From assembly GCA_903813345.2 (NCBI GenBank), contig CAIIXF020000009.1, positions 30,850,740 through 30,914,739 of the forward strand: DNA of 64,000 nt. Direction: 5' to 3'. The position numbers were made by a program, and so were the translations under genes. The notes under the pieces are model-generated. The model was not told the origin of the DNA, searched no databases, and worked only from the letters and a program-made list of their open reading frames with translations. The DNA is from Owenia fusiformis (lineage: Eukaryota > Annelida > Polychaeta > Sabellida > Oweniidae). Below, in pieces: positions 14,101 to 21,459 of this stretch (positions are counted from its first letter, which is position 1; every line of letters begins with the position of its first letter).

Positions 14101-17100
14101 CAATAAATGGTTTCACTTCTTCCAAATATCCATGGACATAAAACAAAGTACTTCAATAACAAATAAACCTAACCCACTCTATACAGCTATCAAAGGATAT
14201 ATTGAATTGTTCAGTGATCAATTTTTGATTAATTTGAGGTTAAAACAAAGAATTATGTTTTTAAAAGCATGAGACCATTGAATTTTTTCATGTTCATTAT
14301 ATATTTCAGAACAAATCAAAGAAGTATTAAAGCTTGATGATCAAATCAACAGCCTGGCACAGGAGCTCTACCAACAGAAGAGTTTACTTGTCATGGGGCG
14401 TGGATATAACTATGCCACTTGTCTAGAGGGTGCACTGGTACGTTCAAAGTTTGTTTTTTGTTTTTTATTTCATTCAATTGTGTCTGTCAATCATGACCCT
14501 ATAAATCATTGAAAAACTAGATTGTTTGCCTGATAATTGTATTTTATTTACTTTTTTATTAATCCTCAACTTTGATTCATTAGTTGAGGATAGTTTATGT
14601 ATCAAAGGCTTGTGTTCGAATTAAAGCTGTTTTTTTAAATTAAATTAAACTATTGATATTTTATTCAAGTTTTGAATTCTTGAGAATGAAAATAAGGAGA
14701 TCTTCTTTACAATGTACGCATGACCAAATTTCTTCTTCCAGAAAATTAAAGAGTTGACTTACATGCATTCCGAGGGTATTTTGGCAGGAGAGTTGAAGCA
14801 TGGACCTCTTGCGCTTGTAGATAAAGCCATGCCAGTCATGATGGTAGTGACGAGAGATGGAGTTTATGCAGTAAGTATAACAACTAACTCTGAACTCTGT
14901 AAATTAAGAGTCTGGGTAAAATATTAATTGAATGTATTCAGGCTATTTGTTATTAAATGTTGGCATCTGCTAGCTATAATACGTGTAAGTAAATGTTCAC
15001 TTTATGTTTGCAGAAATGTATGAATGCCCTTCAGCAAGTGAAAGCCAGACATGTAAGTCGATTTAATACAAAATATTCTGAAATAACAGCTCAATTATAA
15101 TGTATTCTGATAAAAATTATAAGTTATTAACTTATTCTTTAATGATGATCTTAATCCTTATCATAAAATTGAAAACAAACAATAAACTTGATTCTCATGT
15201 TTAAAGTTTAAAATTCAAAATAGTGAAAAAATGTTTGTAAATGAGTCTACACCTGTTCACTCTGAAGAGTCAATTTATCAGCTAATTAATGTACAATATA
15301 TAAATGTTTATAAACCTAGATATTTATAAATGCAGTTCCAGCGCCTACACATGTCTTCACTTAGTTAATTATATACTGCCCTTAGGGAATTTATCTTATT
15401 TTCCTGAAAGAGTAACCCCACATACCACCTGATTGAGGAATGATTTTTATTCTGTGACAATTATGAAATTTTAATGTTGAAGCAACATTTACATGATTTA
15501 CAGTACAATCGACTTCTGAAATACTGTATTAAAAATAGTTTTATTTGCCTTATCATTACTTTATCACAGGATAAGCCTTGTTTCACTTCTTCCTTATATT
15601 CATACTTTTCACACATCCAAGGATCTAGCCAAAATCCAAAATTAGATAAGGCTTTATAAAGGCAAGGCAAAACTAAAGCCAGAGATGTCATACTTAGTAC
15701 TATACTTACATGGTATAAGTTTTTGTGAGAAGTATGAAATAGGTTAGAAACTTACATTACATAGCAATCACTGGCTCCTGCAGCCTTTAATAATTTTCAA
15801 GTTGATTAGTGTTAATCCAGGCCATTCAGTATATGGCTATGTGCTGAATTTTTCAACACGCAACAATTAATTGTTAGATATTAAGTTGTACAGGGTGTCT
15901 ACAAAGTCTCTTTACAATTACAATACACAGCCTGGGTAAAGTGTAGAGACTTTATGGACACTTTGTATCACCATGCCTTATTAGGATGCCAGTGATTGTT
16001 TTGTAGTGCATATGTTGGCACTTTAGAAATATTATTAGTTAAATGGTTATGGTATATTTTGTTTTGCAGCTGCCTGCTCCTGGTGTAGTTCATTAACCAA
16101 TAGCAATGTAACTACATATTGAATCAACCAATCAATGTGTTGTTATAATGAACCAATCACATTGCAACTACACATTGTATGAACCAATCACTGTGTCACT
16201 GTAATGAACCAATCACTACAATTCTACAATGAACCAATCACAATGCAATCTCACATTGTATCCTCCAATCATTGATTACGAACTCCTTGCAACCAATCAT
16301 AATGCTGCTTTACACCAACTAATCATTTTGAAGCTTCTTGTTTCAGCCAATAATCATGCAGCTTCAGAGGGTACCCACCAATCACATTAAAGCTTCATAT
16401 TATTTCAGCAATCATCTTGCAGCTTTGCAACATGAGCAGCACATATTGTGCTATTATACTGCACTGTATGAACCAATATATATGATATCATGATTATGCG
16501 TATTTTGCAATGCTTCAAACATTTTGCTTGTATTGTTTAAGCTTTGCTTTGCAATCTTGTTTCTTATTGTTGAAGTCAATGATCTCTAAAAACTTGAATG
16601 ACACTCATTTGCTGCTAACTCACTCTTATCTTTGTCATGAAAGTTAAATATTTACAGCATGGGGCTTGCCTTATGGTCTAAATTTTAAAGCATGCGAGTT
16701 TGAAATTTAGTTGATATTCACATCAGCATGTTCACAAGAAATCGACCTCTGCTTGCTTGAATAACACAGTATATTTGGCTCACACTCGCAGGCTGGTTGC
16801 TAAAATTTTCAATATAATTAATGGCAATTGGCAAAATGCTTATATGAGTAACAAAAGGTACTTGGTTCATTGTATTAACTCAAGGGGAAAGGCTAAACAT
16901 AGTAACACAATGGAAATATCTTGCTTGCTTTGATGCTTCATGGTTACAAGAAAAAAGAGGGATATTATGGTGATCGAATAAATACAACTCATGTATTCTA
17001 GGGCCAGCCTATTGTGGTTGTTAACACTGGGGATGAAGAAACCAAAAAACAATGCTATAAAGCTATAGAGGTTCCTCACACAACTGACTGTCTGCAAGGT

Positions 17101-21459: not shown

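Follow-up and report, generated by a model that had tools for sequence, protein, structure and literature searches.

Three homologous, probably mutually exclusive exons at the sole GFAT locus detected in the Owenia fusiformis genome

GFAT, the enzyme in control of amino-sugar (hexosamine) synthesis, catalyses the rate-limiting step towards UDP-GlcNAc, and UDP-GlcNAc supplies glycosylation, chitin and O-GlcNAc signalling. The locus described here raises the question of whether one GFAT gene of the annelid Owenia fusiformis can be spliced into three full-length enzymes that differ in a single segment and, if so, how one version would be chosen and what the choice would change. The window (the whole stretch of DNA that was analysed, 64,000 nt of contig CAIIXF020000009.1 of assembly GCA_903813345.2) contains the following parts of the gene, given in window coordinates.

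2059-2138, + strand: GFAT glutaminase-domain exon, the sole glutaminase exon within the window with settled borders
11978-12171, + strand: GFAT isomerase exon 1
12475-12595, + strand: GFAT isomerase exon 2
13376-13533, + strand: GFAT isomerase exon 3
13838-13952, + strand: GFAT isomerase exon 4
14310-14437, + strand: GFAT isomerase exon 5
14742-14870, + strand: GFAT isomerase exon 6
15014-15052, + strand: GFAT isomerase exon 7, the common upstream exon of the cluster, with a phase-0 end
17002-17163, + strand: alternative exon A, 162 nt, phase 0/0, Met at human position 665
18595-18756, + strand: alternative exon B, 162 nt, phase 0/0, the orthodox version and the closest to human GFAT1, Gly at 665
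20037-20198, + strand: alternative exon C, 162 nt, phase 0/0, Lys at 665 and Met at 658
21415-21459, + strand: last coding exon, phase 0, encoding the C-loop and the stop

The isomerase model was built from nine exons, with one of A, B and C counted, and comprises 362 residues, identical to human GFAT1 at 237 of 294 positions before the variable segment and at 13 of 14 after it. When the human catalytic and UDP-GlcNAc residues listed in PMC7000685 were compared, all 11 catalytic or sugar-contact residues were the same as in GFAT1, as were seven of the eight residues in or near the UDP-GlcNAc site; among the isomerase residues that contact UDP-GlcNAc, five of six are identical, with G451 and N465 kept and the linker residue Q310 left out of the count. 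In the exon at 13376-13533, the UDP-GlcNAc-contact residue T458 is Ser, unlike in human GFAT1. The glutaminase half starts upstream of the window and was recovered as six exons with settled borders and further pieces present as open frames; matches to the TIGR01135 profile run from model position 10 on, the first coding exon with Cys2 was not located, and the R-loop motif EYRGYD with Arg33 is present in the gene. Between the GFAT exons, a tandem repeat of about 102 nt at 4344-4880 is open across several units.

A genome-wide profile search with TIGR01135 (E<=10) returned 13 matches, all in C9:30846517-30872195, and a search of the genome with PF01380 returned two matches, both in the GFAT gene. 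A second GFAT gene was considered as a source of diversity, and none was found among the best candidates scored by either profile; since only the best candidates are scored, absence of GFAT elsewhere in the genome is likely rather than certain. Outside the gene, the window holds two roughly collinear blocks, at about 24500-29600 and 32300-38100, which are offset from each other by about 8-9 kb and are either a local duplication or two related elements. Among the matches listed, amino-acid identity between their open frames is about 40-80%. A tandem array at about 60600-62700 shows matches at multiples of 48 nt and is open in several frames on both strands.

The initial annotation had described three exons of 162 nt and phase 0/0, with acceptors and gtaag donors, and this description proved correct to the base. 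Each exon is preceded by AG and followed by GTAAGC (A), GTAAGA (B) or GTAAGT (C), and the flanking sites, the upstream donor 15052|GTAAGT and the downstream acceptor TTTTAG|21415, are also in phase 0. Each of A, B and C can therefore join 15052 to 21415, as had been claimed, since the phases match and the joins are open. The three exons encode aligned versions of residues 614-667 of human GFAT1 in the 681-residue numbering of PMC7000685 (620-673 of the tagged human chain in the match for A), which places the segment, as annotated, just before the tail that closes the active site. The 30-35 identical residues of 54 given in that annotation were reproduced, at 30 for A-B, 35 for A-C and 30 for B-C; at the DNA level 92, 106 and 89 of the 162 positions are identical in the same pairs (55-65%), and identity to human GFAT1 is 27/54 for A, 33/54 for B and 25/54 for C. 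When 830 open frames of at least 35 aa were compared with the window, the exons matched one another beyond chance, with E values of 2e-19 to 3e-22 among the matches listed. The anatomy of the three-exon cluster in GFAT is certain. An assembly artefact or merged haplotypes as its source is next to inconceivable, as the copies are just 55-65% identical in DNA and lie in order within one contig, with introns between them that are dissimilar among the repeats listed.

Divergence between the copies was assessed by codon position and by synonymous distance. Differences at codon positions 1/2/3 number 21/11/38 for A-B, 20/8/28 for A-C and 20/12/41 for B-C, an excess at the third over the second position with Fisher P values of 3e-7, 8e-5 and 3e-8, respectively. 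By the NG86 method, dN is 0.33 and dS 1.35 for A-C, and dN is 0.38 and 0.41 for A-B and B-C, for which dS is saturated beyond estimation; the values given are those of NG86, as YN00 returned none for any pair and LWL85 none for two of the three pairs. The third-position excess, together with the high or saturated synonymous distance, indicates that the copies are old and constrained as protein. Tandem exon duplication in GFAT, as initially proposed, is supported by these three constrained, splice-compatible versions, and the exons are neighbours of similar sequence and length, with the same phases, compatible splice sites and constraint at the protein level, as in clusters of homologous exons.

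The same figures bear on the suggestion that appreciable use is confined to exon B, with A and C as old duplicates which are decaying or included at noise level. Exon B is nearest to the human sequence (33/54, against 27 for A and 25 for C), and the conserved residue at 665 is lost in A and C and that at 658 in C; however, A and C are free of stops, have intact borders and exact length, and differ mainly at synonymous sites (A-C dN/dS of about 0.24), unlike exons long out of use, and exclusive reliance on B is accordingly quite improbable. With human GFAT1 as the outside sequence, A and C stand together against B and human at two sites, and B alone equals human at six more; A equals C, with B and human each different, at four sites, and A, C and human agree against B at two. 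Opposing pairings are found at one site for B and C against A and human and at none for A and B against C and human. These pairings mark B as the orthodox copy and suggest that A and C are the nearer pair despite the position of B between them, which over 54 residues amounts to a tendency and not to a resolved tree. Exon B is taken to be the ancestral-type form.

It had been noted at the outset that the reading frame does not force exclusivity, and this holds for single, double and triple inclusion and for skipping alike: A, B, C, AB, BC, AC, ABC and the form that skips all three are each in frame and without stops. The introns around and between the exons measure 1949, 1431, 1280 and 1216 nt and their donors are U2-like. 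Passive enforcement by a short intron, by a mixture of U2 and U12 sites or by a frame shift was ruled out on this account, given introns of 1216-1949 nt, U2-like donors and open combinations throughout. A passive device is not required for exclusivity, as 484 human clusters of exclusive exons are left to other mechanisms (PMC5740500). The acceptors of A, B and C are slightly weak: they have 10, 8 and 9 pyrimidines in 17 positions, whereas 14 constitutive acceptors average 11.2 (range 8-15). AG-free stretches of 40, 13 and 53 nt gave no strong sign of distant branch points.

Joint inclusion, in which all three exons are used but two or three of them often enter the same transcript, would yield elongated proteins with a repeated segment, and it draws support from the fact that every combination is in frame without stops and that no passive device enforces exclusivity. 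It is nevertheless improbable, because the segment forms a single strand-to-helix unit within a compact fold that ends in the catalytic C-loop, and a second copy would displace that loop by 54 residues. Moreover, each copy has the same length and keeps residues 614, 638, 652, 654, 655, 659, 661 and 667, as is expected if each alone fills the same place. The preferred reading is that one of A, B and C would be chosen per mRNA: alternative use of all three exons is very likely, strict exclusivity is probable, and that the only GFAT locus found in the genome holds three homologous, most likely mutually exclusive exons is put forward with good though not full confidence.

A possible site of control lies in the intron after exon B.

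18841-18945, + strand: candidate splicing element, with TGCATG at 18841, 18862 and 18940 and TTGTTGT at 18893 and 18917

This element, which sits 85-190 nt after exon B, was spotted post hoc, and it means that the introns of the cluster hold UGCAUG- and UUGUUGU-type elements, as in unc-32. The first two introns of the cluster contain no TGCATG, the 200 nt after exon B contain three, and the two TTGTTGT at 18893 and 18917 are the only ones in the four cluster introns. When the intron after B was shuffled, three TGCATG in the first 200 nt were obtained in 0 of 2000 trials, and among 60 shuffled windows none had three TGCATG and two TTGTTG within 200 nt and one had three TGCATG within 100 nt. Two of the three TGCATG after B share one 21-nt tandem repeat, four further copies lie in the intron after C, and a looser triple is found at 3884-3995. 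Across the window, the + strand carries 40 TGCATG, where shuffles average 22, and the - strand carries 13; the total of 53 over both strands compares with a shuffled mean of 42.6 and was reached by 8 of 100 shuffles.

In C. elegans, UGCAUG bound by RBFOX and UUGUUGUGUUGU bound by the CELF protein UNC-75 select the exclusive exon 7a of unc-32 (PMC3585155), and in human GFPT1 RBFOX1/2 raise the inclusion of exon 9 by way of a UGCAUG in the intron that follows it, with RBFOX activating an exon when bound downstream of it and repressing it when bound upstream (PMC10514471). An RBFOX-like RRM was found on the same chromosome as the GFAT gene, at C9:4004839-4007444, in two pieces with 78% identity over 36 and 23 residues; one stop was counted within the first matched stretch. 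The TGCATG/TTGTTGT cluster after B suggests control of the RBFOX/CELF type, in which choice of exon B would probably be promoted by such proteins bound just downstream; the same site is upstream of C and may disfavour it. Both how an exon would be chosen and what the swap would change biochemically are put forward as hypotheses.

RNA pairing across the cluster, of the kind in which one docking site pairs with a selector next to each exon, was also evaluated. Pairing of a site at the exon A donor with stretches upstream of A, B and C was reached by 0 of 24 shuffles, and pairing of the same type with stretches downstream of the three exons by 9 of 24 and 4 of 24 (two measures). The duplex between the donor side of exon A and the stretch before B has an energy of -33.1 kcal/mol, reached by 16 of 300 local shuffles. 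Among 20 of the 24 direct repeat families, none lies beside all three exons. The intron before A carries several repeats with the core ACCAATCACA at 16092-16406, one further copy is found after B at 18927-18936, and the interval from exon B to this further copy contains a complementary GTGATTGG. An 18-nt unit, ACACCCATTACATATGTG, is present five times over at 21291-21381, and the array stops about 33 nt short of the last coding exon.

The positions that distinguish the three versions were placed on a structural model of a bacterial homologue rather than of the window protein (mean pLDDT 90.4, with low confidence in the last ten residues), using 27 of the 80 genome_contigs loci, and the alignment is without offset at the segment ends and at 665. 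In this model the segment begins with a strand at 615-621, passes through a short turn of helix to a second strand at 633-637, and finishes with the last long helix at 642-663. Of the 54 positions, 27 differ among A, B and C, and at 20 the three versions agree with one another and with human GFAT1. Variable positions are most concentrated at 615-635, over the first strand and the turn, and become sparser along the last helix. For comparison, 82 GlmS homologues were used, comprising two loci from viral_contigs and the best 80 of 577 from genome_contigs, all from prokaryote or phage contigs and chosen as the nearest to the query, not as an unbiased sample. At position 665, Gly is found in B, in human GFAT1 and in 78 of the 82 homologues, so that it is also missing from four of them, whereas A has Met and C has Lys; at position 658, Tyr is present in 82/82 GlmS, Phe in human, A and B, and Met in C. 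In the bacterial-homologue model residue 665 lies just past the last helix, two residues ahead of Asp667, the final residue of the exon, which all three versions retain.

When glutamate is absent, Asp667 of human GFAT1 is joined by a salt bridge to Arg33 in the R-loop of the glutaminase domain, next to the C-loop (670-681) that covers the sugar site (PMC7000685). The residues that could be listed from that article as catalytic or as binding UDP-GlcNAc all fall outside 614-667, which makes an effect directly on the feedback pocket less likely than one at the joint between helix and C-loop. The initial annotation had included altered UDP-GlcNAc feedback among the possible consequences of the exon swap; a direct change of the pocket has thereby become less likely, as the listed residues are outside the segment, and the helix/C-loop joint by Asp667 is favoured as the place of action. 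Exon choice would yield three full-length GFATs that share their catalytic and UDP-GlcNAc residues and diverge in the final structural unit ahead of the C-loop; in A and C the helix-ending Gly665 is replaced by Met and Lys, respectively, beside Asp667, whose human counterpart contacts Arg33 in the glutaminase R-loop. On this basis it is proposed, tentatively and with considerable doubt, that A and C may alter C-loop closure and glutaminase-isomerase coupling rather than chemistry.

That the three forms differ instead in oligomer contacts, stability or partner binding, and not in the C-loop or in domain coupling, is a substantial possibility, although it falls short of being probable. The densest variation, at 615-635, is away from residue 665, and the swapped exons of PKM affect oligomer contacts as well as allostery (PMC7954323); on the other hand, the most conserved of the changed positions, 665 and 658, are on or just after the last helix, by the C-loop.

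Returning to C-loop closure and coupling as the site of the effect, a wider and rather doubtful picture can be drawn, in which a three-way choice within one gene would do the work that paralogues and cassette exons do in other animals. The A and C forms (Met665 and Lys665) would alter C-loop dynamics, and hence the coupling of glutamine hydrolysis to sugar amination, or the UDP-GlcNAc response; RBFOX/CELF proteins in muscle or neurons would set the hexosamine flux of a tissue (for example, chitin supply versus O-GlcNAc signalling), and still more forms would arise from mixed dimers. Three splice forms of one GFAT gene could be selectable by cells. If all three are made, they would constitute a natural trio of full-length enzymes, alike except for the element that leads into the C-loop, and the tuning of glutaminase-isomerase coupling would become testable with evolved variants instead of mutagenesis. 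The hexosamine pathway would then join PKM, PFKP, KHK and OGDH as steps regulated by swaps of homologous exons.

PKM has two exclusive exons, against three in the GFAT cluster. It is likewise an enzyme of carbohydrate metabolism in which homologous exons are swapped one for one with a change in regulation (PMC7954323), the PKM swap altering the FBP response and tetramerisation, and in PKM exclusivity is established. PFKP (PMC7954323), KHK (PMC9741552) and OGDH (PMC7969005) are also metabolic enzymes with homologous alternative exons; in OGDH exclusivity is achieved through distant branch points (PMC7969005), of which the GFAT cluster gave no strong sign. The exclusive exons of unc-32 resemble the cluster in the number of one set (4a-4c, three exons) and in the UGCAUG and CELF motifs of the other (7a-7b), but unc-32 encodes a proton-pump subunit and its motifs are in separate introns (7b and 7a), whereas those of the GFAT cluster share one intron (PMC3585155).

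No description of an exclusive or duplicated exon cluster in GFAT was found in the titles and abstract openings listed from the open-licence literature; an earlier annotation of these isoforms in databases is possible. One paper on dendritic cells (PMC5475432) mentions a mutually exclusive exon and GFAT once each. Neither GFPT nor GFAT is mentioned in the main text of PMC5740500 or of PMC7954323, GFPT does not appear in PMC9741552, and a 2025 review of GFAT (PMC12847842) nowhere uses the terms exon, splice variant or alternative splic-. Human GFPT1-L, which includes the muscle exon 9, is an alternatively spliced GFAT under RBFOX control via an intronic UGCAUG, and inclusion of the exon changes activity and UDP-GlcNAc inhibition (PMC10514471). 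However, exon 9 is a mammalian, unduplicated 54-bp cassette near the end of the glutaminase domain and outside the isomerase tail (PMC10514471). Vertebrates with GFPT1 and GFPT2 (PMC10514471) and Drosophila with Gfat1 and Gfat2 (PMC8834284) likewise have more than one GFAT form per animal, but these are whole-gene paralogues, whereas the GFAT cluster holds exon-level variants within the one gene found. To the known type of homologous exclusive exons, as in PKM, the GFAT cluster would add a central enzyme, in three copies.
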